Positions 17,350 to 38,403 of a DNA stretch of 39,541 bases are shown here, piece after piece; position 1 is the stretch's first letter; each line of letters starts with the position of its first letter. The stretch is from Microcaldota archaeon (GTDB lineage Archaea; Micrarchaeota; Micrarchaeia; Anstonellales; J096): positions 1 through 39,541 of the forward strand of contig JAUQPY010000029.1 in assembly GCA_030550115.1 (NCBI GenBank), read 5' to 3'. The position numbers were made by a program, and so were the translations under genes. The notes beneath the pieces were generated by a model. The model saw only the letters and a program-made list of their open reading frames with translations, was not told the origin of the DNA and did no database searches.

Positions 17350-17424
17350 AGCGGGGTAGGGTAGCCTGGAGTGCCCGCCGGGCTCATAACCCGGAGATCG
17401 GTGGTTCAAATCCACCCCCCGCTA
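17350..17424 (+). tRNA. Initiator tRNA-Met (anticodon CAT), contiguous and intron-less
   Basis: AGCGGGG...CCGGG CUCAUAA CCCGG...GGUUCAAAUCC..CCCCGCU-A; A1:U72 pair and GGG:CCC anticodon-stem pairs typical of archaeal initiator tRNA. Confidence 0.93.
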
Positions 17425-17449: not shown

Positions 17450-17457
17450 TTTTTAAA
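17450..17457 (+). promoter_or_regulatory. TATA box (TTTTTAAA) of the giant-protein operon, leaderless spacing
   Basis: TTTAAA centre at 17454.5, 25.5 nt before ATG 17480. The same box and spacing occur before ATG 17080. Confidence 0.65.
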
Positions 17458-17479
17458 TAGTTGTAAATAATATAAAACC

Positions 17480-20140
17480 ATGGAGTTATTAAGAACCGAG
17501 GGAATTAGTGCTAGTGGGGTTTTTTTGGTAGGTAACAGAGAGATAAGAATTGTAGATAATAAACAGGAGATGGGGATGCTATTTATACCGGCAGAATCAA
17601 TTCCGAAATCTTTAGAATTGAGCAATAATGTATCATACAAAGGTAATGCTAAGATGGTATCTCTTGAAGTGATAGATTCTACCGGAAAGAGGAGGAAGTT
17701 AGATCTGCTGGTTGCAGGTAATATCGTGTTCTTCAGATTTGATCAGGATAGTAGATGGACAGTATATAGTCCAAATGTACTTCCATTAGATCAGTATCGA
17801 ATCGAATTGAATGGCAGATCTGTTCAATTATCAAATGTTATCTCTATTGAAGATAGAGTATCACCAAGAGTCAGAATTCCAGGATATAGACAGAGAATTT
17901 ATGATACATTGGTAATTAAACCTGAATTTAAAAACTCTATCCCTGTTCAATCTCTAGAACTCAAAGATTCAGTAATATTAAATGAGCTTAGACCCACAAA
18001 GATGACTTCTCAGAAAACTGAAGATCCAAAGAGATCTAATGATAATCGATCTGACAATAATCGTGATCAAGTAATCAGTAGTACGAATGGAATTTTTGTT
18101 GTAAATGGAACTAAAATAAGATTAGTTAAAGATTCACATCTCAATAGCATGTTCTCCCCTGCGAATACTATCCCCCCATCGATGGTGTTGAATGATAATG
18201 TAAAATTCTCTGGAAAGACCACAACAGTATCTCTAGATGTTTACGATTCAAGTGGTAGAAAGCTAGAATTACAATTCCTAGTAGCTAATAATATGGTTCT
18301 GTTCCGATTCAATCGAGATGATAGATGGGTTCTTTATACCCCAGAAGTACTCTCATTGGATAATTATAGAATCAGATTGAATGGTAGAGAGGTGAAACTA
18401 TCTGAATTGATTGATATTCGGGATCAATTACAGACTGTTGGTAGTAGAAAAATATATGATGTGATTTTCATAAGGCCAGAGTTAGCAAATCATCTCAATT
18501 CTTTAGGTAAGATCAGAGAGTATACTTTAGAATCTGCATCTCTGAACTCTCTCATATCTACCAATGTTAAGAACGAGCAAGCTAAGAGTACAGTTCAGAT
18601 AGAAAAACCAGGTAATACGGATAGAACTCCTTCTCAAAAGGAAACTGTGCAGAGACCTAAGAGATCACCTATGCTTGAACAGTTGTATAATTCAATTAAT
18701 AAAGTAGATCGGGATAATGTTGTTACAGCTGTGGAATCCCTATTGAATGGAAAATATAAATGGATCTGGTTTGGAATCGCAAAGAAAGATTTACCTACTG
18801 TTCAGAAGTGGTTCAGGGAAAACTTTGGGGATAAATATGTATTATCAATCTTGGAAGATAGAGGTAATAGGGTAAGAGTAAGAGTAGATCCTAAACAGGT
18901 ACCTCAACCTTCTAAGATTCCTCCACAAACCACCACCCCTAAACCTTCTAGTAAAGAATCCACTAAAGATACTCCAAAAGTTAACAGCAGCGAAATACTA
19001 CCTAAACCTTCTAGTAAAGAATCTCCTAAAGCATTAGATAATATTCAATCTAATTTAGACTCTCAGAAACAGACTATACCTTCAACTAACCAGACTGAAC
19101 AACCTCAGGAAAGAGAAAGAGGGAATATGTTAGGAATTGAATTCACTAGACAGTTCTCTCAGCATTATTCTGAATTATTGAAGAGTAGAGATATATCTAA
19201 GCAGCATCTACAGAGAGCTAAAGATATGTTAAGTAGATATTCTGAAAGGGATATTTATGCGATGTTAGGATTGAATCCTGAGCAGATGATCAGGAATAGA
19301 GAGATGTTGGCTAGAACAGATCGCAATCTGAAAAGGCCAGAGCTTACTGTAGAACAGCATCTAGCTATTGTCTTGATGGCTCTGGATAGAACTGGTGTAA
19401 ATAGGGGAGAGAATCTGGCTAGAACTGTTCTCGAAAATCCTAATTCTCTGGAGAAAACTGGAGTAAATAGACAAGAGAATCCTATAGTAGATCAGAAGGA
19501 GGAACAACTTCAGAAAGCAGAGCAAACTGTTGAATTATCTCAGGGGACTAGACGAATGTTAGCAGTAGGTAATACAAATGTAGAAGTGTATCTATCTGGA
19601 AATCTACTCGAATTAACATTAGGTAATCAAAAGTACTATTTGGGTTTACCTAATAGCGTAGAGGAATTGGAGAGATTGAGAGAAATGGGATTGGAAGAAG
19701 CTGTTCCAGTGATAGTGATATCAAAAGAAGGAGCAAGTCTCCATGTTCTAGATCCTAATAGGTTAGATGAGCTACAGAAGCTACAGGAGGATGGAGATGT
19801 ATATTTAGTGATCATCAATGTCTCTGATAGAGGGGTAACTGTATATACCACCAAGTTAGATAGAATAGCTCCAGTAATCAGATCCTTGGATGATGTAGTA
19901 TCTGAACTGAATACTCCAGATTGGATGAGGGATGTTGTTCATAATATAGATAGAAATCCAGAGCAAATAGATCCAAAACAAGTACCCGGAAAATTAGAAT
20001 CCTATTACTCAGATGAGGAAATCAGATTGTTGAATCAGATATATGAGATGTATTTCAAAAGTAGAATGAGTTGGGAAGAATTCGTGGGTTTTGCAATATA
20101 TTATTTTGAAAAACCTGTTGTTGATGTTGAGGTGAGATAA
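17480..20140 (+). CDS. Large multidomain protein A (886 aa), tandem beta domains with P/S/T-rich linkers; unknown
   Basis: Long ORF with two related N-terminal domains (GVFLVGNREIRIVDNK... / GIFVVNGTKIRLVKDS...), linkers with repeated KPSSKES, and a C-terminal helical segment. No signal peptide. Confidence 0.85.
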   Translation: MELLRTEGISASGVFLVGNREIRIVDNKQEMGMLFIPAESIPKSLELSNNVSYKGNAKMVSLEVIDSTGKRRKLDLLVAGNIVFFRFDQDSRWTVYSPNVLPLDQYRIELNGRSVQLSNVISIEDRVSPRVRIPGYRQRIYDTLVIKPEFKNSIPVQSLELKDSVILNELRPTKMTSQKTEDPKRSNDNRSDNNRDQVISSTNGIFVVNGTKIRLVKDSHLNSMFSPANTIPPSMVLNDNVKFSGKTTTVSLDVYDSSGRKLELQFLVANNMVLFRFNRDDRWVLYTPEVLSLDNYRIRLNGREVKLSELIDIRDQLQTVGSRKIYDVIFIRPELANHLNSLGKIREYTLESASLNSLISTNVKNEQAKSTVQIEKPGNTDRTPSQKETVQRPKRSPMLEQLYNSINKVDRDNVVTAVESLLNGKYKWIWFGIAKKDLPTVQKWFRENFGDKYVLSILEDRGNRVRVRVDPKQVPQPSKIPPQTTTPKPSSKESTKDTPKVNSSEILPKPSSKESPKALDNIQSNLDSQKQTIPSTNQTEQPQERERGNMLGIEFTRQFSQHYSELLKSRDISKQHLQRAKDMLSRYSERDIYAMLGLNPEQMIRNREMLARTDRNLKRPELTVEQHLAIVLMALDRTGVNRGENLARTVLENPNSLEKTGVNRQENPIVDQKEEQLQKAEQTVELSQGTRRMLAVGNTNVEVYLSGNLLELTLGNQKYYLGLPNSVEELERLREMGLEEAVPVIVISKEGASLHVLDPNRLDELQKLQEDGDVYLVIINVSDRGVTVYTTKLDRIAPVIRSLDDVVSELNTPDWMRDVVHNIDRNPEQIDPKQVPGKLESYYSDEEIRLLNQIYEMYFKSRMSWEEFVGFAIYYFEKPVVDVEVR

Positions 20141-23100
20141 ATGGTTCAGGTTAATGCAGTTGCAGTTGAACCTAAGGAAGTATATCTAAAGCCAACTGAT
20201 GAATTTGTAAATGAAAAAGGTGTGAAAGTCTATGATAATGGGAAATGGGTAGAACTAAAAGATAGCAGACAACTCAAGCCTGGAGCGAAAATAAGTGTAG
20301 ATGGGCATGTATATGTAGTTACAGATCAGAAAACTGATTACACAGTGAGTATGTATAATAAATATACTCTAGCTGATGGGAGAATGGTTTATGAATTGCC
20401 TGGTAAGAGATATCTACTTGTATCTGGAAATTCTCAATCTTCAATATCAGAGGCAAGATTCAAGACTCTTATAGAATCTGCTAGAAGTGTGGAAACAATC
20501 GTATATGTTAGCAATTCTGTATATCAACACAATAAACAGAAAGATAAACCTTCTCAACCATCAGAACAGCAAAAAACAGATCCTAGACAGGAGCAGAGAG
20601 TTACACCACAACCTGCTAGGCAGGAACAGAAACCTCAGTCTACTAGCCAGATGAGTAGACAGGAGACTGCAAGGTTCTTACACACAGGAGCATATCTACT
20701 GAGTGGTATTGATATTTATGTAAACGATCCTACTCTATACTCAAGGACTTTCGGAGAATGGTTGGATGAGGTGGATAGGGCTACTGGTGGTAAGTACTCC
20801 AAATCTCTAATGGAGGCTTTAGGTATAAATAGTAAGCAGCTAGAGGAACTTAGATCGAAATCTCTAGCAGAGATAATGGCAGCTAGAAGGGATCTGGGAA
20901 GTCTATTAACCTCCAAAAGTGCTAAGGAGAGTGATCTGGATACTCTAAGAGCAAGGTACGGAGATGCTCTATTGTTAGTACTACTGAGAGCTACTACTGG
21001 AGATAGGAATCTAACTCTAGATGATGTTAGAGAAGCTATAAGATTTGTTGGTAGTGATACATACAGATCCGCTCATAGGGAGATTAGAGATATATCAGCA
21101 AGAGCTGCAGATCAGTTAGAACAGAAGAATATACTAGAAAGATATTACTTTGTTAAATACGCTTGGCCAGCAATCAAGAGAATGGATGGAATGAGCTATG
21201 TGGAGAATAATGCTTATTTGGAATTCAGCCTGAATAGTACTAAAGGGGCTCAGTTCTTAGAGAGAGTATTGGGTCAGAATTTCTCGAATAATTATCTGAG
21301 TTATAGATATGGTTTACCGTTCATGATTAGAACAAACTCCTCTTTTGATAATCTGATAGCTATGCTATCAGCAGTTGAACAGGTAAACCTGGGAATTATG
21401 AACAACCCTACAGCTCTGGGTTTGAATAGAATGGAACAATTTAGGTACTACACTTCAGAATTGCCTAGAATAGTAGCATCATTATACGCTAACTATGCTG
21501 CAGCTCTTGAACCTAGACTCAGATCAGGATTATTTGGTGATTTTGAAAGCAGATTAAGACGATATACTTCAGCTGCATCTGGACTGAGATTTGATCAGGT
21601 TGAGGAAGTTGCAAAGATAATTGAAGATTTTGTTAGAGCTGGGAAGGATCTAAGAATTCCTTCGGATAATACCTTTGGAGCTCGAGGTAATGTTAGGGCC
21701 TCACCAGTCTTAAGAGAACCTCAATTAAATCTGCTAACACAAGGATTGATACTGAATATGGGGCAGCTAATCTCAAGATACAATCCAAATGCTGGATATT
21801 TCTTCTCCCTACCTCAAGAATGGTTAGATCTTAGAGGTAATCTATACTATGAAGCTACAGAGAGTAGTGCTAGAGGTTCTGGTAGAGTAGAACTCAGAGG
21901 AACCAGATCATATATAGCAACCAGTATTGATGATGATAGGCTGCAATTTTTGGCTAGAAATATAGATATGCTCAAAGAACTAAGAGGAACAGTCTCTCCT
22001 ACTAGAGTAGAAGTAGAATTAGAGGCCCAATTAGATAGAGAGTTTAGGGGAGCAAATGTAGGAGTAGTATTTAGGAGAGAGAATGGTAAAATGGAGGGGA
22101 TTCTATATGCAAAGATAGATGGTAATTGGTATAGAATAGGGAGAGTGGATAATTCTTGGTTACTTGGTATGGATGTAGTTATCCCAGGATTGGCTAATGC
22201 AATTGGAGAGGTGAGAGTCGGTGATAGTGGTAGCGTTGTGGGTAGTATAGGAATCGCTATGCCACAACTATCAGGGTGGGTTGTGAAAACTGAGGAGGAT
22301 CTGTTGGCTATAGGTGCATATCTATTGAATGGTAATCAGTTGGCTGCAGGAACTTTTGCTAATCAGAATGTTACTGCTCCAAATCTGGTATATGCAGGAT
22401 TCTACAACGGTAATGTATTATTAGGTGGACAATACCTAACCAAAGATTACTCTATTAGTGGTATGGGAATTTTAGGTAATGGTCTGGGTATGGAGGTAAC
22501 TTTCGGAACTAGGACGATAGTATTACAAGGGGGTTATGCTAACTTCGATGGATTATCTAGTGTTTATGGAGCTGCAAAGGCTACAATAGGAGATATGAGT
22601 GTATTTGCCGCATATATTGCATCTGGGGAGAGGATGTTCATGGGTGCTGCTATGGAGAGAGATGGATTTGCTCTACAGGCTTATAGAATGTCCAAGGTCG
22701 ATCCAAAGATCTTTGGGATGTACAGCAATTTCTTCAAGGATGCCAGTTCATTCACTGGTGCAATTGCCCTTTGGGGAAGAAACTATGCAGAGCTAATAGT
22801 TGCACAGACCCCTGAGGATTTGAGGATTTTACTGGGAGGGGGTTATAGTGTTGATAGTGTAGAGCTTAGTGGTGCGGTGGGTTTTGGAAATGGTGAGAGA
22901 ATGATTGCAGCTAGAGCCACCTTACCTATAGGAATATGGTTGGCATCAGCAGGTGTTCTATATCAGAGTAATAAATTACTATTTTCCGCATCAGCTCAAA
23001 ATCAGCAATGGTTCTTCGGAGCAGCATATAACACATCAACAGGGGTATTGGTGGTAAAGGTTAGATACGGAGACTCAGATAGGATTATAGAGGTGTACAA

Positions 23101-23335
23101 ATCTTTTTCTGATAGGAGTATAGGGATAATCGGCGAATGTGGATTCTTCCTAAATAAAGCCATATTTTTATCACTGATTGCTGCATATGCAACTGGAAAA
23201 TTAATAGTATGGTATGTTGGTGCTAGAGCAAGCTATAATCGGGCAAACTCTAATTTGAATTTAGAGATTAGATATGGAAAGCGAGGCGAGGAAAGTAGAT
23301 TCACAATAGTCGTAGGGATGGTATATGCATTCTAA
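20141..23335 (+). CDS. Large protein B (1064 aa) with beta-barrel-like C-terminal region; unknown
   Basis: ORF starts 1 nt after the stop of protein A. Pro/Gln-rich linker, helical middle, then a Gly/Ala-rich alternating beta-strand series ending in FTIVVGMVYAF. No signal peptide visible. Confidence 0.85.
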   Translation: MVQVNAVAVEPKEVYLKPTDEFVNEKGVKVYDNGKWVELKDSRQLKPGAKISVDGHVYVVTDQKTDYTVSMYNKYTLADGRMVYELPGKRYLLVSGNSQSSISEARFKTLIESARSVETIVYVSNSVYQHNKQKDKPSQPSEQQKTDPRQEQRVTPQPARQEQKPQSTSQMSRQETARFLHTGAYLLSGIDIYVNDPTLYSRTFGEWLDEVDRATGGKYSKSLMEALGINSKQLEELRSKSLAEIMAARRDLGSLLTSKSAKESDLDTLRARYGDALLLVLLRATTGDRNLTLDDVREAIRFVGSDTYRSAHREIRDISARAADQLEQKNILERYYFVKYAWPAIKRMDGMSYVENNAYLEFSLNSTKGAQFLERVLGQNFSNNYLSYRYGLPFMIRTNSSFDNLIAMLSAVEQVNLGIMNNPTALGLNRMEQFRYYTSELPRIVASLYANYAAALEPRLRSGLFGDFESRLRRYTSAASGLRFDQVEEVAKIIEDFVRAGKDLRIPSDNTFGARGNVRASPVLREPQLNLLTQGLILNMGQLISRYNPNAGYFFSLPQEWLDLRGNLYYEATESSARGSGRVELRGTRSYIATSIDDDRLQFLARNIDMLKELRGTVSPTRVEVELEAQLDREFRGANVGVVFRRENGKMEGILYAKIDGNWYRIGRVDNSWLLGMDVVIPGLANAIGEVRVGDSGSVVGSIGIAMPQLSGWVVKTEEDLLAIGAYLLNGNQLAAGTFANQNVTAPNLVYAGFYNGNVLLGGQYLTKDYSISGMGILGNGLGMEVTFGTRTIVLQGGYANFDGLSSVYGAAKATIGDMSVFAAYIASGERMFMGAAMERDGFALQAYRMSKVDPKIFGMYSNFFKDASSFTGAIALWGRNYAELIVAQTPEDLRILLGGGYSVDSVELSGAVGFGNGERMIAARATLPIGIWLASAGVLYQSNKLLFSASAQNQQWFFGAAYNTSTGVLVVKVRYGDSDRIIEVYKSFSDRSIGIIGECGFFLNKAIFLSLIAAYATGKLIVWYVGARASYNRANSNLNLEIRYGKRGEESRFTIVVGMVYAF

Positions 23336-25649
23336 ACAGGTAGAACAGCAATTATTAGGAGATCTTCTTAAACTTGATGATGATCTACTGAAACGTATAG
23401 AGGAATTTAATAGAGATAGGGAAGATTCTAAAAAGATTAAGGTGATTGAACGTTCAGGTGTACGCTATGCAGTAATTGATAATAATTTTATAGAATTTTT
23501 TAGAGCACAGGACTTAAGAGAGAGATATGAAATCAGAGTTGAGCAGGAGCAGAATGGTTCTAGAGTATTTGTAGCTGTTCAAAAAAGAGATAGGAAGATC
23601 GGGGTGGGACCAAGTTATGATAGTCAAGAGGGTTTCAGAGCCGAATTGAGTGTTCAAACACCTGAGTTGGGTAAGATAGCCGCTAGTGTTGGCTCTTCAC
23701 AAGCATCATTGAATGCAAATGCATTTAGATTAGAGGGATTTCGATTAGGAAGTGTGTATCCCAAGATCTCTGCAGTATGTTTGGGAATTCTCTGTTGGAA
23801 TGATGGTAGATTTGGACTTTCTCTGCCAACATTTAGTGGATTTCTAGATTTCTTTATAGCAATGTCTATCACCCCTCTCCAAGAAGCATTTTCAAAAGGT
23901 AGTTTCCAAGAGGGTCTCCTGCACTTTTTAGGAGTAACAGATGAAGTTAGAGATAGATTCATTAGAGAAGGTATTCTGGGAGGGATAATTGGTTTTGGAG
24001 AGGAATGGTTTAGGAGGGCTGCCGGTGTATTCGGGGGATTTCTTGAATCAATAGATGAGATCAGATTTCTTCTTACCCCTCCCTCAAGCAACTGGAAGTA
24101 TGACAATCCGATAAGTGCTGTGGTAGATTTTCAGAGAGCTATGGTATCTACTATGAGAGGTAATTTCAGAGAGGCTGAATATATATTACAGGGGCTGCTT
24201 TCTTCAAAGGATATTCCAATATGGCTAAGGGCAACAATTATGGAATTTGAACACAAGTATTGGCAGAGGAGAACTCAGCCATTCAGTTCTCTATCAACAG
24301 CTCTAGATTTTATATTTAATAGTCATGTTCCAAGTCAGCTAGGTAAGAGATTAGATGATGCGGAGAAATACGTGGAGAGTGTAAGTTTTGAAGATTTGAA
24401 GGATGATGAGGAGAAAGATAGATACATAGCAAATCTTATGTATGTAATGTTATCCAATAGGGATTTTGATCCGAAAAAGATGATAGAAAGCATATCTTTA
24501 ATAGTAATGCATCTAGCTAGAAAGGGGGATTATTCAACTATTTTAGCATTAGCAGATCTGCTGAATCAACCATTCAGATTGTCTCAAGATGAACGTGTAG
24601 CAGTATATGACGCTCTTATGAGAGCTAATGCCGGATTGGTTTCTATAGAAAATAATCAGAAGATAAATAGTGAAAACGATCTTGCTGCTGGAGTAGGTAT
24701 TTATATATTTGCCAAAGCTCTTGGTTTCGAAGGATGGAATCTAACAGATCTCCGTACATATGTTCCAGATGAACTAAGAGAGTCATTAGAGGGAAAAGCT
24801 AAAGAGTACCTGAAAACCCTTAAGAGTTTAGTTATGATAAATCCAAAAATGATAGGTTATTTCTTATATGAGCTTCAGGATGTTGCTAATATCTTAGGTA
24901 GGGAGGAATTGGCTAAGGAACTTAGATCTCTGCAGAATTTGAGATATAATCCAGGTTTTGGATTGAGTGAGATTGCCGAGAGATCACTTAAACATCCAAT
25001 AGGTCTATTAATTGATCAATACGACAGAGAATCCTATAGAATTCCAAGATTGCTACAAAACATACGTGAGTTTTCAAGAAATAATAGTGAGGATATATAT
25101 AAACAGATAGAAGAGGATCTGGATTTTCTTGCTAGAAATCCATATATTCTATGGTTAGCTAGAATTCTAAGTGATTCTGAGGATTATAAGAAATTAGAAT
25201 TACTGATTCAGGGGAGGAGTACTTGGGATAAGGAGCTTGATGAGGGGGCTAATAGGTTTATAGAGGAAAGAGCAAGGAGGAACACTACTCCTCTAGAGAA
25301 GGGTGATAAAGAAGATACCACCACGTCTACTCAAACAGATAATTCACAGAGAAAGGATTATGGAGAGTTGTTCGGGAGATCTGAACAGAAACAGGAGATA
25401 TTAAGAGTAGCTAGAATGGTTGCAAATGGGATTAGAACAATAGAAGATAAGTATTATTTGGATATGGTTGTGGATTTACAGAAGAGATACGGGGAAAATG
25501 TCAGAGATATGTTCATAGATATATTTGGGCAATCTCAGGGACAGATAATATACGAGCTATATACGACACAGAGAAAATTATGGCCTAATATAGATCCATA
25601 CAAATACGTAGCTGCTATTATATACGAATTGGATAGACGAATAACATGA
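23325..25649 (+). CDS. Large protein C (774 aa), short amphipathic beta segment then alpha-helical repeats; unknown
   Basis: Start overlaps the end of protein B by 11 nt. RKIGVGPSYDSQEGFRAELSVQTPELGKIAASVGSSQASLNANAF followed by a helical region and a charged/Thr-rich linker. Confidence 0.85.
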   Translation: MHSKQVEQQLLGDLLKLDDDLLKRIEEFNRDREDSKKIKVIERSGVRYAVIDNNFIEFFRAQDLRERYEIRVEQEQNGSRVFVAVQKRDRKIGVGPSYDSQEGFRAELSVQTPELGKIAASVGSSQASLNANAFRLEGFRLGSVYPKISAVCLGILCWNDGRFGLSLPTFSGFLDFFIAMSITPLQEAFSKGSFQEGLLHFLGVTDEVRDRFIREGILGGIIGFGEEWFRRAAGVFGGFLESIDEIRFLLTPPSSNWKYDNPISAVVDFQRAMVSTMRGNFREAEYILQGLLSSKDIPIWLRATIMEFEHKYWQRRTQPFSSLSTALDFIFNSHVPSQLGKRLDDAEKYVESVSFEDLKDDEEKDRYIANLMYVMLSNRDFDPKKMIESISLIVMHLARKGDYSTILALADLLNQPFRLSQDERVAVYDALMRANAGLVSIENNQKINSENDLAAGVGIYIFAKALGFEGWNLTDLRTYVPDELRESLEGKAKEYLKTLKSLVMINPKMIGYFLYELQDVANILGREELAKELRSLQNLRYNPGFGLSEIAERSLKHPIGLLIDQYDRESYRIPRLLQNIREFSRNNSEDIYKQIEEDLDFLARNPYILWLARILSDSEDYKKLELLIQGRSTWDKELDEGANRFIEERARRNTTPLEKGDKEDTTTSTQTDNSQRKDYGELFGRSEQKQEILRVARMVANGIRTIEDKYYLDMVVDLQKRYGENVRDMFIDIFGQSQGQIIYELYTTQRKLWPNIDPYKYVAAIIYELDRRIT

Positions 25650-26275
25650 TGTCAATAAAGCTCTATAAATATATGAGAAGTGGAGAGACATTAGCTAATA
25701 TAATAGATCGTATCCAACCCATCAGCCAGGAACAGAGATATAGATTAGTGGATTTTGTAATGGATCTGGGAAGAGCTGATGAGATAGTTGAGAGGATTGT
25801 TCAGGAGAGAGATCCAAAGCTGAGAAAAGCACTGTTCAATAGTACTAGAGTTTATATAAAGAAGTATCTTGAATTGGGTTATTGTGGAGTTTTTGAATTG
25901 TTCAAGGCAGATCTGGATTGGAATAGGAACAGAACGGTTCACAGTTCAATACTACTATCAAAAGCAATATATAAATTCATTTCGAATAATATAGTAAAAA
26001 TGCATGATCGGAGATTGGAGGCTCTGATCATCACATCAAATCTCTTAGATGATCTGTTTGATATTCGCAAAGATGGGAATTTAAATTTCAAATATATTCT
26101 AGGATTGATAGGTGAGTTGATCAGATATTCATACATATCCTCATCATTGATCTTTAAAAATCTGGATCTATTATATGATTTATTAGTAAATGTAAAATAC
26201 GTATTTAGAGGAGGGTTTGAGGATGAGACTATAAAGAATGCGGATACAGATATTAGCAAATTGATCAGATACTAA
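25646..26275 (+). CDS. Helical hypothetical protein D (209 aa)
   Basis: ATGA overlap with protein C; same operon. Confidence 0.75.
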   Translation: MMSIKLYKYMRSGETLANIIDRIQPISQEQRYRLVDFVMDLGRADEIVERIVQERDPKLRKALFNSTRVYIKKYLELGYCGVFELFKADLDWNRNRTVHSSILLSKAIYKFISNNIVKMHDRRLEALIITSNLLDDLFDIRKDGNLNFKYILGLIGELIRYSYISSSLIFKNLDLLYDLLVNVKYVFRGGFEDETIKNADTDISKLIRY

Positions 26276-26304: not shown

Positions 26305-26790
26305 ATGGACAGTATAACCACCAGAACCGGAGATTCGGGATTTACATCTATCATGAATAGAAGAGTTAGGAAAACAGATCCAACTATAAAATTGATAGGT
26401 AAAATCGATGAACTTGTATCGATTATTGGATATGTAAAATCAATGATTTTATATGATGAAATGGATGAATTACAGGAGCTTTTGAAAAATTTACTAAACA
26501 ATCTTGCTTATGAGAAAGATATAGATAGGCATATGATAGAGCTATTGGACAGGAAAATAGAATCCCTGGAAACTAGTATTGGTGTAAAGCTGGAGAAGTT
26601 CGTTAAGCCTAAAGGTAAATCTGCTCTTGTGCATTATATTAGAGCTCTGGTTAGAGAAACAGAGATTGTTGCTTGGGAAACGAATTTTACAAATATCTCG
26701 ATATTCATGAATAGACTATCAGATTACATATTCCTACTAGCTCTTAAAAGCTCTATGGATAATAATGAATTTGAATACTTTAAGAGTTAA
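26305..26790 (+). CDS. Cob(I)alamin adenosyltransferase (PduO/MMAB type)
   Basis: TTRTGDSGFTSIMNRRVRKTDPTIKLIGKIDELVSIIGYVKS and HYIRALVRETEIVAW. Confidence 0.88.
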   Translation: MDSITTRTGDSGFTSIMNRRVRKTDPTIKLIGKIDELVSIIGYVKSMILYDEMDELQELLKNLLNNLAYEKDIDRHMIELLDRKIESLETSIGVKLEKFVKPKGKSALVHYIRALVRETEIVAWETNFTNISIFMNRLSDYIFLLALKSSMDNNEFEYFKS

Positions 26791-29191: not shown

Positions 29192-29271
29192 TAAATTTTC
29201 CGAATTAATTTGCTTCCTATAATTAAATATTTAAATATTTTTTATCTTAATATCTTTTGGGAGGTGGTATT

Positions 29272-30114
29272 GTGAAGTTGCATATCAAGATAGAGTTGGA
29301 GAATCCGGTTGAACTCCCAAGTGATTTTCGGGGAGCAATGATGAGTTTTGTTAAATATCTAATAAATAACCCAGATATTACAAATACTAAAAATATAAAG
29401 AGGTACAACTTCACATACTTTCTGCAGAAAGCAGATACGAACGGGAAGGGAAATGAAATGTTACCCCCAATAAATAGATCCTCTGCTAACGATAAAAATG
29501 ATAACAAAAATAGAATTGAGATAAAATACATTACTCTTAAATTGAGTTTAATTGATGGAAAGATAATGTCCTCAGTACTAGATAGATTAAGTGAGTTGGG
29601 CAAATCTGGAAAATTAGAAGGGGTGAATAATGATTTCTGGTCTAAGGCGGGTAAGATAAGAATCCTTTATACTAGGCTTATGCAAGACCCTTATATAACT
29701 ACTGATACGGCAATATTTAAATCCCAATCCCCTATTGTGATTTCAAGAGCTAAATTTGATAAAAGTGCTAATAGACCCAAGAAACGACCAGAAGAGATTT
29801 ATCTAACTCCTGAGGATGGAGAAGAATGGAAAGCAGCGATTGTTCAGAGCCTATTGTATCGATATAAGCATATCTATAACAGAGAATATACCGGGGAAAT
29901 AGATATCCAGGTATTAGGATCTAGATCTAATAAATTGATGATAAAACACTATCGTGGGAGAGTGATAGGTTGGTCTGGTAAGTTCATGGTTAGAGCTAGG
30001 CCTGAAATGTTGAATTTTATAGTTAGATTTGGTATAGGTGATAGGACTGGTCAGGGATTCGGATATGTTAAACTGATCAATAGTTCACTAAATAGAAGTG
30101 GTGATATTATATGA
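29272..30114 (+). CDS. cas6: CRISPR repeat-processing endoribonuclease Cas6
   Basis: C-terminal Gly-rich loop FGIGDRTGQGFGYVKL; first gene of the cas operon. Start refined to GTG 29272 with GGAGGTG 5 nt upstream (29260-29266). Confidence 0.85.
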   Translation: MKLHIKIELENPVELPSDFRGAMMSFVKYLINNPDITNTKNIKRYNFTYFLQKADTNGKGNEMLPPINRSSANDKNDNKNRIEIKYITLKLSLIDGKIMSSVLDRLSELGKSGKLEGVNNDFWSKAGKIRILYTRLMQDPYITTDTAIFKSQSPIVISRAKFDKSANRPKKRPEEIYLTPEDGEEWKAAIVQSLLYRYKHIYNREYTGEIDIQVLGSRSNKLMIKHYRGRVIGWSGKFMVRARPEMLNFIVRFGIGDRTGQGFGYVKLINSSLNRSGDII

Positions 30115-31853
30115 ATTCACAGTCACTAAATACCAGAGAAAAATCTATGGAATTCAAACCATATGAACCTGGTTGTTCTATTAATGAACATAATGAGATC
30201 ATAGTTAAATTGATGCCTGGAGAATTCGCTATAAACGCTGCTATCTATGGGTTATTATATAACTATCACAGATTTAATGATATAAACAACTATCAGAAAG
30301 TATACTTATCTAAATTGGTCGAAGATGAAGATAATTATTTGAAAGAACAATTACAGAAGGTTATAAACGAAGATGTAAAGTTTTTAATAGATAAAAGTAA
30401 TATTGAGTTTGTAGAAGACGGTGGAGTAATAATCAATTTAACTCGTTATATTAAATTATTGTGGATTAATTATTGGATTAATTTTCTCATTCATTCTGAT
30501 AGGAATAAACAAAAGATCGATGAAATAATCTCTATTTTAAAATTATATAAAAATGAGGATTATGATAATATAATAAAAAGATCTAGTATTATCTTTGATC
30601 ATGAATCAATCGATATTTATAATAAGAAAGTAGCTAAACTCTTTAAGATCATGTTTAGAGCAAGCTTCGTAAGTAATAGCGCAGATTTTCCAAATTATTT
30701 AAGTTCAGAGAAAAATAAATCTTATAATAATAGCTATAACTACCTTACAAAATTACTAGCTCTAGCGAACCCTAAGTATTTAGATAGAAAAAACACGACT
30801 AAATGTGTATTAACTCACATTCCATTTTATAATACTTATAAACAGGAGGAATGGGGGGGTAATAGATACTTAACTTACATGATGTTTAAGTTTATAGATC
30901 CAAAAATAAAAGGAGAAGGATCAAAACCCTACGTAAATTGGAATAGATCGCCTCAGGATAAAAGATTCCCTATTTCAGATCTAACCTACTTAATAATAAT
31001 ACCACATTTTTACCTTGCTTTTAGAATAGATGATGAAGAAAATAAATATAAGTATAGATACTTTATAAATACTACATATTCATTAAAACTACTATACCAT
31101 CTTAATGAAAAATTTGAGAGATTAAGTAAACTATCAAATAACACTATCCTAACTTTACCTAAAACAATCCATATCGCTCTTAGGCTCTCAAATTTAGTGA
31201 GCTTAGGATTTGAAGTATATAAAGTTGAAAATAATAATATACAAAGATTTTATATATCCCCTTTAGTGATAAATCTACTCTCAAACTCAAGACTCATAAC
31301 AGCCCTTAAATCTGTGAAGGAGGAAAGTTTAATTGAAATTGTTATGGATTGTATATTAAATGAAAACTTTAATAAGATGAAATATTTAATTTATGAAAAA
31401 CTTAAGGATTATTTGAAGAACTCTTCACAAACAAACAATCCACATTTAATAAGAAATTTAATTAAAATATATAGAGAAATAGTATTTCAGATATATGAAT
31501 ATCGTGATCTTGATACTGGGGGTGGTAAAAATATGAAGGAGACAAGACCAATTTCCCAAGGTAGGTTCTACAATAGTCTAAAAAATCAAGAATGGCTGAA
31601 AGAAGTCCTAAAAAATTCTAGTTATCAATTATTAGAAGCAGCTAGAACAGAAAACTGGGAGAGAGTGGGTTATCTAATATCAAGAGCAATGATTATTACT
31701 GGTGAAAAAACATATGAATTGATAAATTTACTTAATATGTTACCTCCTGAAGATGAATTACAAGCTGAAGTGTTAAAAATATCTATATACAATTTGTTGG
31801 TTGCGTTAAATAGTGAACTTGTTGATACTTCTACTCAAGGTGAGGGGCAATGA
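30111..31853 (+). CDS. cas8b: Type I-B-like large subunit Cas8 (Cst1/Cas8b-like by position)
   Basis: Position between cas6 and cas7, 580 aa, ATGA coupling; helical C-terminal segment. Sequence alone is divergent. Confidence 0.65.
   Translation: MNSQSLNTREKSMEFKPYEPGCSINEHNEIIVKLMPGEFAINAAIYGLLYNYHRFNDINNYQKVYLSKLVEDEDNYLKEQLQKVINEDVKFLIDKSNIEFVEDGGVIINLTRYIKLLWINYWINFLIHSDRNKQKIDEIISILKLYKNEDYDNIIKRSSIIFDHESIDIYNKKVAKLFKIMFRASFVSNSADFPNYLSSEKNKSYNNSYNYLTKLLALANPKYLDRKNTTKCVLTHIPFYNTYKQEEWGGNRYLTYMMFKFIDPKIKGEGSKPYVNWNRSPQDKRFPISDLTYLIIIPHFYLAFRIDDEENKYKYRYFINTTYSLKLLYHLNEKFERLSKLSNNTILTLPKTIHIALRLSNLVSLGFEVYKVENNNIQRFYISPLVINLLSNSRLITALKSVKEESLIEIVMDCILNENFNKMKYLIYEKLKDYLKNSSQTNNPHLIRNLIKIYREIVFQIYEYRDLDTGGGKNMKETRPISQGRFYNSLKNQEWLKEVLKNSSYQLLEAARTENWERVGYLISRAMIITGEKTYELINLLNMLPPEDELQAEVLKISIYNLLVALNSELVDTSTQGEGQ
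31518..31535 (+). promoter_or_regulatory. Internal Shine-Dalgarno (GGGGGTGG) and ATG within cas8
   Basis: GGGGGTGG at 31518-31525, 7-nt spacer, in-frame ATG at 31533. Confidence 0.55.
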
Positions 31854-32851
31854 AGATGCAGGCTCTTGGTATAACCGTTCTATATCCAGAAGTACCAGCT
31901 CTAAACAGATCTGAAAATCAGGGAAACATCCTAGTTCTAAAGAGAATAGGAGATTTTGTCTACATCAGTAGACAGGCAATGAGGTACTATCTATGGAATA
32001 CTCTAAAAACAGGTTTTGGATGGAAAGAAACAAAAGTAACCATTGAAGATAGAGTAGTACAGTTCTCTATTGAAGAAATTACTGAAGAATTGCTATCATT
32101 TGGTTTTATGGTTGCTAGAAAAAAATCTAAAACTAGAAAAGACCAAGCTGAAAGCGATAAAGAATCAAATCAAAAAGGAGAACAGATCACTAGAAAAGCA
32201 GCAGTATCTATGACTGATGGAGAATTTCTGAACAGGTATCTGGGTGAGATATCTTTCAATACAAATCATGATTTACTTAAAAGGCCTAAAGATGCAAATG
32301 CAGATCCTAAAGATGCAAATGCAGATCCAAATCCTTCACCATATCAAAAGGAAGAACATAGAGGTATCTTGAGATGGAGTGTAGTTATTGATGTGAATAG
32401 ATTGTGTAAGATTGAAGATAAATGGAGAGGTGTATTAAAGCAAGAACAGATTGCACAGATTGAGGATGATGATAATAGAGATAAGTTTATAAATAAAATA
32501 GTAAATGATATTCTAACAGCAATCCAAGAAGGAATTATCTATCATGTAGGAGGGAAAAATGAACCATTAACACCTATTGCAACATTTGTATATAAAGTAA
32601 GTATCCCTTCTCCATTATTGCATAATGTGGTTTATGCAAATTTAGAGGACGGTGATAAATACGTAGTAAATTTAGATGATGTAGAAAAGTTTGCAAGTAA
32701 GAACATATATTTTGGGGACTATAAACAGAATCTTAGAGTTAGACTATTAGACTTTAAAGTTGTGAATAAAAAATCAGATCCACCAATTTATACTAACAAC
32801 AGGATACAGGTAAAAATAAATAGTAAGGATGGTGTAATAGAATTTGTATAG
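31850..32851 (+). CDS. cas7: Cas7 (DevR/Cst2-type backbone subunit)
   Basis: LGITVLYPEVPALNRSENQGNILVLKRIGDFVYISRQAMRYYLWNTL, AAVSMTDGEFLNRYLGEISFNT. Confidence 0.85.
   Translation: MKMQALGITVLYPEVPALNRSENQGNILVLKRIGDFVYISRQAMRYYLWNTLKTGFGWKETKVTIEDRVVQFSIEEITEELLSFGFMVARKKSKTRKDQAESDKESNQKGEQITRKAAVSMTDGEFLNRYLGEISFNTNHDLLKRPKDANADPKDANADPNPSPYQKEEHRGILRWSVVIDVNRLCKIEDKWRGVLKQEQIAQIEDDDNRDKFINKIVNDILTAIQEGIIYHVGGKNEPLTPIATFVYKVSIPSPLLHNVVYANLEDGDKYVVNLDDVEKFASKNIYFGDYKQNLRVRLLDFKVVNKKSDPPIYTNNRIQVKINSKDGVIEFV
32285..32326 (+). repeat. In-frame 21-nt tandem duplication within cas7 (PKDANAD x2)
   Basis: CCTAAAGATGCAAATGCAGAT repeated exactly at 32285-32305 and 32306-32326. Confidence 0.95.
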
Positions 32852-32860
32852 AGATTAAAC

Positions 32861-33775
32861 ATGGAGGAAGTTGTAAGGATCTCTGCGTTTCAGCCTAGAG
32901 CAAATTATAGAATGCCGCTAACAGTAACTCATAGAATAACCTATACTTTTCTACCAATATCAACAGCAATAGGGTTTATAGCGAATTTAATAGGTTATAA
33001 TCAATGGAACACATCAGAGGAGAGAAGAGAGAAATTTCTAGAAATTTTAAGATATAGTAAGATAGGTATAATCACCTCTTATGAAATTGTAGAAATTGAT
33101 AAGAATTACTGGTTTAGAAATCCGGCTAAGCAGAGTAATAGAGAGGAGGATAAGCGTTCTGATCATCAGGGGACCAAGAGTAGTAGAGGATCCAATAAAA
33201 ATGGCGGATATGATTTTCCTATGATAGACCCTTTACCCGTTTATAATCTAAGAAATGTAATGAATATTATATATGTGGGTGGAAAATTAAAAGATGAACT
33301 AAAGCAGATTATAGATGATAGGGGAATTTTCAAGGAACATAGGTATATAGGTCCTCTGAATATTGGTAGGGCAGAAGATTTAATAACAGCAATAGAATTT
33401 AAATTTATTAAATTAGAGAGATTGGATAGTAAATTCAGTAATGAACCTATTGTTTTAAATGATCCAATGAGAAGAGAAAATTACTCTTTTATTAAATATT
33501 TGAAAATTAGTCCAAGACATACAGCAATGTTGGTCGATACTAGAGAGCTTAAGTATGAGGATGCATTAGTGAAGAAGAACGTTCAAAGTATTCCAGCAGT
33601 ATTCAAAATATCGCAAGATGATGGTTCTAGAACTAACATTTACATCAATTCATTAATTTTAGTAGATTATATCCCTACAAATTCAGAAGCTAAAACAATT
33701 ATTGAATATAAAAATCTGTTTTACGATGCTGAATATTCCAATCCAGTATATCTCTATAATCTGAATGTAATATAG
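32861..33775 (+). CDS. cas5: Cas5 (type I-B)
   Basis: RISAFQPRANYRMPLTVTHRITYTFLPISTAIGFIANLIG, N-terminal RAMP-type Cas5 pattern; position. Confidence 0.82.
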   Translation: MEEVVRISAFQPRANYRMPLTVTHRITYTFLPISTAIGFIANLIGYNQWNTSEERREKFLEILRYSKIGIITSYEIVEIDKNYWFRNPAKQSNREEDKRSDHQGTKSSRGSNKNGGYDFPMIDPLPVYNLRNVMNIIYVGGKLKDELKQIIDDRGIFKEHRYIGPLNIGRAEDLITAIEFKFIKLERLDSKFSNEPIVLNDPMRRENYSFIKYLKISPRHTAMLVDTRELKYEDALVKKNVQSIPAVFKISQDDGSRTNIYINSLILVDYIPTNSEAKTIIEYKNLFYDAEYSNPVYLYNLNVI

Positions 33776-33784
33776 GTGATAAAA

Positions 33785-36625
33785 ATGGAAGATGAAATAC
33801 TAGCAAAGAGTCTTAAAGAAGGGAGAAAAATTACTCTCAAAGAACATACAGAAGATGTGTATAGAATTGCCCGCAAATTGTTGGATATGGATTTTTCAAG
33901 TAACCCTCCTCAATATCTAAAGATTATTGTAGAACTAGCAGCTTTACTACATGATATTGGTAAAGTTGATCCAGTGATGCAGAACATATTGAGTAAAAAC
34001 ATAAGATCAGATTCAAGAAGAATAGATCATGCTTTAATTTCATATCTATTGATAGATAAAAATAATTTTATTAACTATATAAGAAGCCTAAACATACAAG
34101 ATAGAGATATAGATCCGTATAAGATATATGCAGCAGTATCTAGAGCAGTAGTGTTTCATCATTTTAGAAATAGCTATTTAACTACAACAAAACAAAGATT
34201 CCTCAGATTAGTTCAAGAAAACAATGACAAAAATATTCAAGAAGAAGAGAAGACATATATAGATGATACAATCTTGGATAAGTTAAAATTAACTCTGCAA
34301 TCGATTGTTGATTCTGTTAATGATGATAAATCTATAAAGTATAATGTTAATGATATTCTAGTAAAAGATACTGCTGTTCTATCCAGAGTAATAAATAATT
34401 TACCAGATGTATCTAGAATGATATTCAGGCTCAAAGGTGAATTAAATATCTATTATAGCTTATATGATCACGTAGATTATTCTATGTATAGAGAACAGAT
34501 AGGTACAGATTATACATTAAAATATGAATACATCTATCCTTTAGGATTATTAATGAGAGCTGATGCTTTAGCATCTTGGGCAGAAGAGAACTTAGGTCAA
34601 GATTCAATTCAAAAAGTAATACAAGATATAAAGCCATCTAACCTATCGACTCAAAACATTTCAAAACAATTTAATAATCGTATAATTTGGCAGCAGAAGT
34701 TAGTCAACATAATTCAAGAGTTTGTGGATAAAAATCAAATAAAATTAAGAGGTGTAATATTAATTGCCCCTACAGGAGTAGGAAAGAGTGAATTCGCTTT
34801 CTATCTAGCTAGTATGTTGAGACTTAATAAAATAATATATACTTTACCAATTAGATCTGCTATAGATGCTTTATATTGGAGATTTAAGGATAAATATAAA
34901 TACGAAGATTCAGTAGATCTAATACATTCAACAAGTTACTTATCAAAATATCAATTTATAGAATCGGATATGGATGATATGATTTGGGACGGCATTAATA
35001 CTGAGTATCTTCTTACACTTAGAGAAACTGAGGAAATTGGGAGACAATTTGTAAAACCCATATTATTTGCTACAGGAGATCAGATCTATCCAGCAGCTTT
35101 GAGATATCCTAGATTTGAGACAGTATACTCCTTACTAAAGAATGCGCTATTAGTTAATGATGAATTACAACAATATACACCATCTCAAATAGGAATTTTA
35201 CTGAACATGTTATATGATGTTAAAAATATGGGTGGATATTTCTTGTTTATGACAGCTACCATACCTATGAAAATAGAAGATTTGAAAGGATTGATTGAAG
35301 AAGATTTTCAAGTGATTGAATTAGGTGACGATCTAGATATTAAAGATATTGATACAACCAAGGAAGCAGTTCTACTAATAAACACAACAAAGTTAGTAGA
35401 TAAATATCATGATCTAGAAGATCTTAAAATCGCATTAAACAATAGTAGTAAAATTCACAATATAACTACCATAATGATAGATAATTCTGATCAAGAAGAT
35501 AAAAAATATGAAGAGAAGGATTATTTAAATGATGTATATAATAAATTACGCGATCATATATTAAATCTTATTAAAGAAAGAAAAGTATCAAGATTTTTAA
35601 TAATTATGAATACTGTAAAGAGAGCTCAATGCCTATATGAAAAATTAGAAGGAGATAGCAATTTTAAAGATTTCAAAAAAATGCTATTGCATAGTAGGTA
35701 TACTAATAGAGACAGAGCTGAGTTGTCAAAAAGTTTAATTAATTGTATGAACAATAGATCTGAACAGAGTGAAAATAAAACTGATGGGAATAGAATTATT
35801 GCAATAACCACACAAGTAGTTGAAGCATCATTAGATATAGATGCAGATATTCTATTCACAGAAGTTGCTCCTATAGAGAATTTAATTCAAAGGATGGGAA
35901 GAATTAATCGACATAAAGTATTCAAGGAGTCTGATAGAGACTTTCAGCAGAAACAACCAAACATATTCATAATTTTACCTGAAAATACTAAAAATATACG
36001 CTGGTTGTATAGACCTTATGGGTCTATTATTGCTAATATTATAGATTTTCTAAAAGAGAACTCTAGTGAATTTTTAGGCTCCCCAATAAGTTTTGAGAAT
36101 AAACTTAAATTGGTAAAAAAATTCTATAAAACTTACAGTGAAAATAATAATACTAAAAAGAGCAAGGAGATTAAATGGACTTATGAGAATTATTATCTTC
36201 AGATTGAGGAATCTATAGAATATATTAGAAGTGGTGGGGGTGCGTTAGACCGAGATGATGCGCAAAATATATTTAGACCTGTTTTAACTGAAAGAGTGAT
36301 ACCTAGATCTCTAGTAAAAGAACTTATAAATGATATAAAAGATGCAATTGAGAAAAATAAAGAAGATAGTATTTTTAACATAATCTCTGATTATGAAATC
36401 TCTGTTCATAGATATGTTATAAAGCGAGATATGATACAAGATACTGAGAGTGTTTTAAGAGAAGAATTAGATGGGAAGGAAGTAATACCTAATGATATAA
36501 AAAATAGGATTATTTCACTTCTTAAAAAATATGAAATTAAAATTATAAACGCAAAATATGACGGTAAGGGTAAAGGTTTGGTATTGGCAGATGAAGATGA
36601 TTCTAAAGATCCTATAATGATATGA
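33785..36625 (+). CDS. cas3: Cas3 (fused HD nuclease + helicase)
   Basis: LLHDIGKVDP (HD), IAPTGVGKSEFAFYLA (Walker A), LVNDELQQY (motif II), FMTATIP, TTQVVEASLDIDADILFTEVAPIENLIQRMGRINR. Start refined from 33776 to ATG 33785 after AGGTGAT. Confidence 0.95.
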   Translation: MEDEILAKSLKEGRKITLKEHTEDVYRIARKLLDMDFSSNPPQYLKIIVELAALLHDIGKVDPVMQNILSKNIRSDSRRIDHALISYLLIDKNNFINYIRSLNIQDRDIDPYKIYAAVSRAVVFHHFRNSYLTTTKQRFLRLVQENNDKNIQEEEKTYIDDTILDKLKLTLQSIVDSVNDDKSIKYNVNDILVKDTAVLSRVINNLPDVSRMIFRLKGELNIYYSLYDHVDYSMYREQIGTDYTLKYEYIYPLGLLMRADALASWAEENLGQDSIQKVIQDIKPSNLSTQNISKQFNNRIIWQQKLVNIIQEFVDKNQIKLRGVILIAPTGVGKSEFAFYLASMLRLNKIIYTLPIRSAIDALYWRFKDKYKYEDSVDLIHSTSYLSKYQFIESDMDDMIWDGINTEYLLTLRETEEIGRQFVKPILFATGDQIYPAALRYPRFETVYSLLKNALLVNDELQQYTPSQIGILLNMLYDVKNMGGYFLFMTATIPMKIEDLKGLIEEDFQVIELGDDLDIKDIDTTKEAVLLINTTKLVDKYHDLEDLKIALNNSSKIHNITTIMIDNSDQEDKKYEEKDYLNDVYNKLRDHILNLIKERKVSRFLIIMNTVKRAQCLYEKLEGDSNFKDFKKMLLHSRYTNRDRAELSKSLINCMNNRSEQSENKTDGNRIIAITTQVVEASLDIDADILFTEVAPIENLIQRMGRINRHKVFKESDRDFQQKQPNIFIILPENTKNIRWLYRPYGSIIANIIDFLKENSSEFLGSPISFENKLKLVKKFYKTYSENNNTKKSKEIKWTYENYYLQIEESIEYIRSGGGALDRDDAQNIFRPVLTERVIPRSLVKELINDIKDAIEKNKEDSIFNIISDYEISVHRYVIKRDMIQDTESVLREELDGKEVIPNDIKNRIISLLKKYEIKIINAKYDGKGKGLVLADEDDSKDPIMI

Positions 36626-37182
36626 AAAGCTTAGAGATAGGTGGATTATTGATACAGTATCTAAATATATGTAAAAGAAAATTATGGTTTTATATTAAAG
36701 GTCTTAGAATGGAATCACGAAGTGATCTGGTAGCCTTAGGTAGAATTATAGATCAACAATATTATGTTAGATACAAAGACGAAGACGAGTATAGTCAAGA
36801 TTTCATTAGAACAGATTTTCTAACCAACACTGAAGGAGTGGTAGTTCATGAAGTTAAAAAAACAGATACTCTAGTAGAAGAACAGAGCTGGCAGGTAAAA
36901 TATTATCTATATGTTCTAAAAAGAAGAGGGGTAGATATAAAATATGGGATATTGCATTACCCGGAGAAGAGACGAAAAATAAATGTTTACCTTACAGAGC
37001 AAGATGAAAAAATTATTCAGGAAATGTTAGAAGAGATACAGAATATAAGTAAAATGGAGATTCCCCCTCCTATAGAACCGAAGTCATATTGTGGACAATG
37101 TGCTTACTTTGAATTGTGTTGGGCAGGTGAAGTAAGGAAAAATGTCAAAAGGAAGAAAAATAATAATAGTCTCCGCAGGTAG
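36622..37182 (+). CDS. cas4: Cas4 (RecB-like nuclease with Fe-S cysteines)
   Basis: LNICKRKLWFYIKGL, RTDFLTNTEGVVVHEVKKTDTLVEEQSWQVKYYLYVLKRRG, YCGQCAYFELCW. Confidence 0.92.
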   Translation: MKSLEIGGLLIQYLNICKRKLWFYIKGLRMESRSDLVALGRIIDQQYYVRYKDEDEYSQDFIRTDFLTNTEGVVVHEVKKTDTLVEEQSWQVKYYLYVLKRRGVDIKYGILHYPEKRRKINVYLTEQDEKIIQEMLEEIQNISKMEIPPPIEPKSYCGQCAYFELCWAGEVRKNVKRKKNNNSLRR

Positions 37183-38125
37183 ATTAAAACGAGAAAACAA
37201 TACAATATGTTTTATTAATGATAAAGAAAAGAAGTATCTACCCATAGAGAATTTGGAAGAAATGTATGTATTTGGAAGAGTGGATTTTAACATAGATTTC
37301 TTTGAATACATAGGTGAAAAGGGATTGGTTGTACACATTTTTGATTATTATGGTTGGTACAAAGGAAGTTTTATTCCAAAAGAACATATGTTTTCAGGAG
37401 AATTAATAATAAATCAAGTCCAAGCAGCAATAAATCAAAGTTACTCATTAAGGCTAGCTAAAGAATTTGTTAGAGGAGCTATATATAATTTAGCTAGAAT
37501 CTCCTATAAGCGTGATCCAGAATTGAAGAATAAATTGAAAGATTACTACTATAAATTAGATTCAGCGAAAAATAATGAAGAATTAATGGGATTTGAGGGA
37601 AATGCGAGAAAAACCTTCTATGATTCAATGAAAAATTGGATCGATTGGGAGTTTGATGGAAGAAATAGAAATCCTCCTAAAGATTCTACTAATGCTTTAA
37701 TATCTTTCTTAAACTCACTGACCTACGCATTAACAATAAAACATATTATGAGAAGTGCACTACATCCAGGTATATCCTTTTTACATGCAAATACTGAAAG
37801 GAATAGATTTTCATTAGCATTGGATATATCTGAAGTATTCAAGCCTATCTTTTCTGAAGCTCTGACGATAAGCCTTATAAACAATAAAAAGCTAAATCCA
37901 GAATTGCATTTTGATTTTGATTCTAATACTAATGGGATGTATTTAAATCAGAATGGGAGAAATATAGTTATGAAAGAATGGGTAAATATGTTAGAAAATA
38001 CGATTATGCATAGAGCTCTGAAAAGGAAAGTTAGTTTTGACAAACTAGTTGAATTAGAGATTTATAAATTAATTAAAGATCTATTGAAAGATAAAAAATA
38101 TAAATCTTTGAGAATTTGGTGGTAA
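37142..38125 (+). CDS. cas1: Cas1 integrase
   Basis: FGRVDFNIDFFEYIGEKGLVVHIFDYYGWYKGSF, MGFEGNARKTFYDSM, ALHPGISFLHANTERNRFSLALDISEVFKPIFSEAL. Confidence 0.97.
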   Translation: MSKGRKIIIVSAGRLKRENNTICFINDKEKKYLPIENLEEMYVFGRVDFNIDFFEYIGEKGLVVHIFDYYGWYKGSFIPKEHMFSGELIINQVQAAINQSYSLRLAKEFVRGAIYNLARISYKRDPELKNKLKDYYYKLDSAKNNEELMGFEGNARKTFYDSMKNWIDWEFDGRNRNPPKDSTNALISFLNSLTYALTIKHIMRSALHPGISFLHANTERNRFSLALDISEVFKPIFSEALTISLINNKKLNPELHFDFDSNTNGMYLNQNGRNIVMKEWVNMLENTIMHRALKRKVSFDKLVELEIYKLIKDLLKDKKYKSLRIWW

Positions 38126-38403
38126 AGTTGTTTATTATAATGGCTTATGATATGGACACTACTGATGAAAATTATGAAAATAATGCTAGAAAAGTTAGAC
38201 AGATCGCTAGCAGATACTTAAATAGAATTCAGAAATCTGTATTTTATGGAAATTTGAGTGAAGGAAAGTTTAAAGAATTAGAGATGCAAATAAGAACTTC
38301 AATAAAAAACTCTAACGATAAAATAGTATTTTATGTATTTGAAGATAACGTGAAATATATTGTTATCAAAATAAATCATAATGAAGACGAAATTATATTA
38401 TAA
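38116..38403 (+). CDS. cas2: Cas2
   Basis: IIMAYDMDTTDENYENNARKVRQIASRYLNRIQKSVFYGNLSEGKFKELE; follows cas1. True start may be TTG 38128. Confidence 0.92.
   Translation: MVVKLFIIMAYDMDTTDENYENNARKVRQIASRYLNRIQKSVFYGNLSEGKFKELEMQIRTSIKNSNDKIVFYVFEDNVKYIVIKINHNEDEIIL

Follow-up and report, generated by a model that had tools for sequence, protein, structure and literature searches.

Archaea are not known to make beta-barrels of the outer-membrane type. A periplasm between an inner and an outer membrane has been described for ARMAN cells (Comolli 2009, as cited in PMC4243693), and the same source refers to a pore-forming protein in the second membrane of Ignicoccus hospitalis, an archaeon that hosts a DPANN symbiont (Burghardt 2007, as cited in PMC4243693). 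The micrarchaeote Microcaldus ARM-1, which has an S-layer, is joined to its host Metallosphaera by proteinaceous intercellular nanotubes (PMC11329633), and a possible distal relative of the PopA oligomeric porin-like superfamily in the DPANN Altiarchaeales provides a lead for archaeal beta-barrels (PMC12228718). Our own search of the literature, which covered open-licence papers, returned no paper on an archaeal beta-barrel like protein B of the operon described herein.

The operon lies on the forward strand of a 39,541-nt stretch of DNA (the window, i.e., the whole stretch analysed) from a micrarchaeote with an assembly of 575 kb. It comprises gene A (17480–20140, 886 aa), gene B (20141–23335, 1064 aa), gene C (23325–25649, 774 aa) and gene D (25646–26275, 209 aa, a helical protein), all of which start with ATG. 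A first-pass annotation of this DNA had delineated the same four open reading frames and their joints, which we confirmed: the stop codon of A abuts the start codon of B (TAA followed by ATG, 0 nt), B and C overlap by 11 nt, and C and D share an ATGA overlap. Wherever a joint can be read in the remaining four species of the genus, it is at most 5 nt or an overlap; the A/B spacing is 1 nt in G003, where B and C overlap by 11 nt as in the window and C and D overlap as well, G002 has joints of 1 nt and 5 nt (its C/D overlap being read on a separate contig), and B and C are 1 nt apart in G004 and 4 nt apart in G001. A TATA-like promoter element, TTTTTAAATA (17450–17459, forward strand), has its first base 30 nt and its centre ~25 nt before the start codon of A, in agreement with the TATA box that had been placed about 25 nt before the first ATG, and its counterpart in G003, CTTTAAAATA, likewise begins exactly 30 nt before A. 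This spacing fits a leaderless transcript. A tRNA-Met gene (17350–17424) is found immediately upstream of the element and gene A, and by reading a tRNA-Met is similarly located upstream of A in G003.

Behind D follows a gene of the cobalamin adenosyltransferase family (26305–26790, Pfam E 5e-28), found in all seven relatives tested, and ~3 kb downstream of the operon this very reduced genome carries a type I-B CRISPR-Cas operon (29257–38403), in which PADLOC identified Cas6, Cas7, Cas5, Cas3, Cas4, Cas1 and Cas2, and in which a 580-aa protein without a match (30111–31853) occupies the position expected for Cas8. At the other end of the window, the reverse strand encodes a protein of 1742 aa (376–5604) with hydrophobic segments at residue 174 and, by reading, at the N- and C-terminus; it has no family match in a Pfam search and is probably a surface or membrane protein. 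A–D, which the first-pass annotation had set against an otherwise compact genome, are thus not the only giants, a second giant family (E, see below) being a further case.

The distribution of the genes was resolved across the five species of the genus (G000–G004), whose genomes are 77–88% complete. Using a profile of the five B sequences, we found B in 5/5 species of the genus and in 0 of the 296 other genomes of the class, and in each of the five the gene that directly follows B is C. The C of G001 and G004 had diverged beyond the reach of tblastn and was recognised by its position together with an alignment at 18% identity, meaning that its homology in these two species depends for the most part on position. 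We found A and D solely in the species with the full operon, i.e., G000, G002 and G003; neither lies beside the B–C pair of G004, and no D follows C in G001 or G004, although the incompleteness of these two genomes means that absence of A and D elsewhere in them is not proven. The B–C pair of G001 and G004 adjoins a Holliday junction resolvase gene (identified by reading), the cobalamin adenosyltransferase gene being at another site, and the pair has thus stayed together in two neighbourhoods. Since A and D were found only in species with the full operon, we consider B–C to be the core and A and D to belong to one clade. The four-gene unit proposed by the first-pass annotation therefore stands insofar as the genes co-occur and are not scattered singly, B and C being adjacent in 5/5 species, but it is not an indivisible unit. 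In G004, two related ORFs with a HEYTH motif, metalloprotease-like by reading, are situated just upstream of B (L012 941–2871). No confident homologue was detected outside the genus for B (profile over the class, 301 genomes, as well as IMG/VR) or for D (59 relatives searched), a weak match to D in G013 (E 0.0013) being taken as chance.

None of the four proteins could be assigned to a characterised family, in keeping with the earlier view that none is recognisable from the sequence. A–D gave nothing credible in Pfam, NCBIfam or PADLOC, i.e., they match no model of anti-phage defence; the Gvp families of gas vesicles (in Pfam) are not among them, and neither a Sec signal peptide nor a known S-layer family was found that would indicate an S-layer. 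Sequence searches of the PDB produced noise, with a soluble lectin (E 0.09) as the best match of the C-terminal domain of B, and comparison of B with known outer membrane protein (OMP) families yielded sub-threshold matches only, i.e., noise. A horizontal or viral origin was considered and rejected, because the GC3 of A–D (0.28–0.33) equals that of the flanking genes and matches to PHROGs were limited to weak ones with families of no assigned function (best E 0.0067). Two cas genes that were measured have a GC3 of 0.20–0.23, below their surroundings. None of the four proteins matched any known kind, and the mechanism given below is a proposal.

Each of the three large proteins has a Pro/Gln/Ser-rich linker and helical parts, which bears out the common architecture suggested earlier only in part: the helical module of A showed no homology to that of C, and a module common to both was unsupported by HMM or profile comparison. 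Protein A contains a duplicated beta-rich domain (residues 10–154 and 201–339, at 17507–17941 and 18080–18496 on the forward strand), whose copies are 44% identical over 145 aa (E 3e-42), Pro/Ser/Gln linkers and a helical module (residues 556–636, 19145–19387, forward). The prediction for C comprises a beta region at low confidence, then long helices, an alpha-solenoid (residues 262–538, 24108–24938, forward), a linker and, at high confidence, a helical module at the C-terminus (residues 686–771, 25380–25637, forward), and a structure search against the PDB gave nothing significant or informative, solenoid included. The helical module of C is also present in proteins with Pro/Gln linkers at a second locus (G000:C18, L034 4130–7075; G003:C20, L035 851–3545), which adjoins genes reading as DNA primase subunits; by reading, these proteins too are without signal peptide. 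A further match to this module in G001 was discarded as circular, because the G001 sequence had been in the seed alignment.

The C-terminal domain of B (residues 517–1064, 21689–23332, forward strand), which ends in F, is predicted by AlphaFold2 with homologues to form an up-and-down antiparallel meander of ~30 amphipathic strands with short turns on both sides. The model, which is of moderate confidence, has a mean pLDDT of 55 and a pTM of 0.37, the C-terminal part being mostly at pLDDT 60–80 and the remainder lower. Against the PDB, Foldseek returned 124 matches at E ≤ 0.001, of which the top 50 are membrane beta-barrels or complexes containing them (including chaperone-usher pores, LptD, BtuB, FecA, AlgE, porins and VDAC), although large meanders would favour OMP matches in Foldseek whether they are membrane-embedded or not. 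Since the TM-scores on the query range from 0.13 to 0.29, these matches speak for topology and not for a closed barrel. A structure search against viral proteins again retrieved porins and autotransporters, plus tail fibres, with weaker scores. One face of the strands is distinct from the other across the five homologues, both in charge (6% vs 23% charged residues) and in hydropathy (mean difference of 1.95, vs 1.33 with an sd of 0.18 after permutation of the residues of each strand), as would be expected equally for a soluble sheet with one face buried. The region 700–1064 is poor in charge, with 8% charged residues between 701 and 800, and the C-terminal residue is F or W in 5/5 homologues vs 6 of 96 other ORFs with a length of 150 aa or more (~6%). 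A cruder alternation scan, run on OMPs of E. coli and on soluble controls, failed to separate the two kinds of protein and is not counted as support. As the first-pass annotation had noted, A–D have no obvious signal peptide (no hydrophobic N-terminus, judged by hydropathy only), and Omp85 (PF01103) was not found in the five genomes at their 77–88% completeness. If B is a barrel, it would have to get to a membrane, and into it, by another route.

Strong selection on the operon had been deduced from its size and coordination, which do not suffice for that conclusion. Identity to G003 is 41% for A, 48% for B, 36% for C and 55% for D, compared to 54–74% for seven flanking genes, and D is 47–55% identical among G000, G002 and G003. 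Two contig ends within the G002 metagenome-assembled genome (MAG), G002:C11 and G002:C6 (L009, L016), carry near-identical versions of C (97% nt, 93% aa), which could be strain variation or an effect of a collapsed assembly. The dN/dS of C between these two contigs is ~0.70 over 371 codons, a value that does not suggest strong constraint.

A second family of giants, E, resembles the operon proteins in design. In G004 it is ~1670 aa long (L065 1943–7075, reverse strand), with Pro-rich linkers, a beta-rich C-terminus ending in F and no signal peptide; in G000 it is cut by a contig end (L072 9301–11184), and in G001 it is split over two contigs (L073 2–4861; L074 3317–4330) and interrupted by an in-frame TAA (L073 1103–1135), due to either a sequencing error or a split gene. 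No homology was detected between E and B. Like B, E has no confident homologue outside the genus (profile over the class, 301 genomes); a weak match in G007 (E 0.0014), to a short stretch with five stops, was taken as chance. In G001 and G004, E is followed by a CARDB protein with a hydrophobic N-terminus, and in G000 and G001 it lies opposite a cluster of pilin-like genes. One pilin-like gene near E has a weak match, below cut-off, to the class III signal peptide model.

We tentatively favour the reading that A–D make up a membrane-associated assembly specific to the genus and built around a beta-barrel, and that this assembly may serve contact or exchange with a host. Its observed basis is gene order, tight joints, genus-wide retention of B–C in two neighbourhoods, orphan status, lack of signal peptides and fast divergence; the strands and topology of B and the solenoid of C are predicted by models. 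B would be the core, with the amphipathic antiparallel beta-meander of its C-terminal ~500 residues closing into a pore or beta-barrel in the membrane, either by itself or by oligomerisation, and with its N-terminal and helical parts remaining soluble. C may bind B and could stabilise or gate it via its helices, solenoid and helical module, whereas A and D would be scaffold or adaptor parts gained in one clade. What the assembly would likely provide to a host-dependent cell is contact or exchange across the membrane, perhaps at the host interface. From their co-occurrence we infer that A–D may form one complex; barrel closure, membrane insertion and any host role are likewise steps that we infer. 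The more specific version, in which B is a true archaeal membrane beta-barrel inserted with neither Sec signal nor Omp85 and joins C (and A, D) in making up a pore or bridge to the host, E being a second, unrelated barrel-bearing giant, is in our estimation rather doubtful.

The first-pass annotation had listed an intracellular compartment among its suggestions, for which we found no specific support, the fold prediction for B pointing rather to a membrane beta-barrel-like protein. A related explanation, that A, B and C use their beta domains, helical modules and flexible linkers to build a soluble cytoplasmic scaffold or compartment, in which the hydrophobic face of B would be hidden inside a protein core or at the contacts of subunits, would accommodate the missing signal peptides and Omp85, the turns that are short on both sides of the B model, and the helical module shared with the second-locus proteins, as is seen in modular scaffolds; we regard it as somewhat unlikely, given that the top Foldseek matches of B are all membrane beta-barrels instead of soluble sheets and that stretches of B are very charge-poor. 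Divergence beyond that of the flanking genes, the dN/dS of ~0.70 for part of C, genus restriction and low-complexity linkers would all be in line with a surface or host-directed adhesin or effector complex that leaves the cell by a non-Sec route and evolves fast through meeting its host, and the similar giant E adjoins Sec-exported CARDB proteins and pilin-like genes. However, the operon has neither export signal nor export genes, a single dN/dS value, drawn from two contigs of the same MAG, carries little weight, and E is not detectably homologous to B, which makes this explanation unlikely. A third role, in which the helical middle of B and its amphipathic sheets carry lipid, as large lipid-transfer proteins do, and so aid a cell that takes host lipids, draws on a helical middle conserved in 5/5 species and followed by large amphipathic sheets; it appears quite improbable, as no lipid-transfer protein is among the top 50 Foldseek matches and the gene context contains no lipid-related genes.

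If the barrel reading of B is true, Archaea would possess an integral beta-barrel whose route of insertion is not known, and B would be a concrete candidate for the means by which material passes between a micrarchaeote and another cell. Should B be soluble, A–D are still conserved, genus-restricted giants that take up ~9 kb of a half-megabase genome, and such an allotment implies that they are likely central to this way of life.

Compared to the systems described above, the outer membrane pore of Ignicoccus hospitalis is a small oligomer-forming peptide and differs from B, which is giant and beta-rich. The nanotubes of ARM-1 originate from the host (PMC11329633), unlike A–D, which the micrarchaeote itself encodes and which are restricted to a single genus. 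PopA proteins are 16-strand, Sec-exported bacterial OMPs (PMC12228718), and we found no relation between them and B. From the membrane beta-barrels of bacteria and organelles (PapC/FimD ushers, LptD, AlgE, porins and VDAC), B differs by its archaeal host, the lack of any sequence relation, signal peptide or detected Omp85, and a putative closure, while it shares with them a large up-and-down antiparallel meander, amphipathic strands and a C-terminal aromatic residue.
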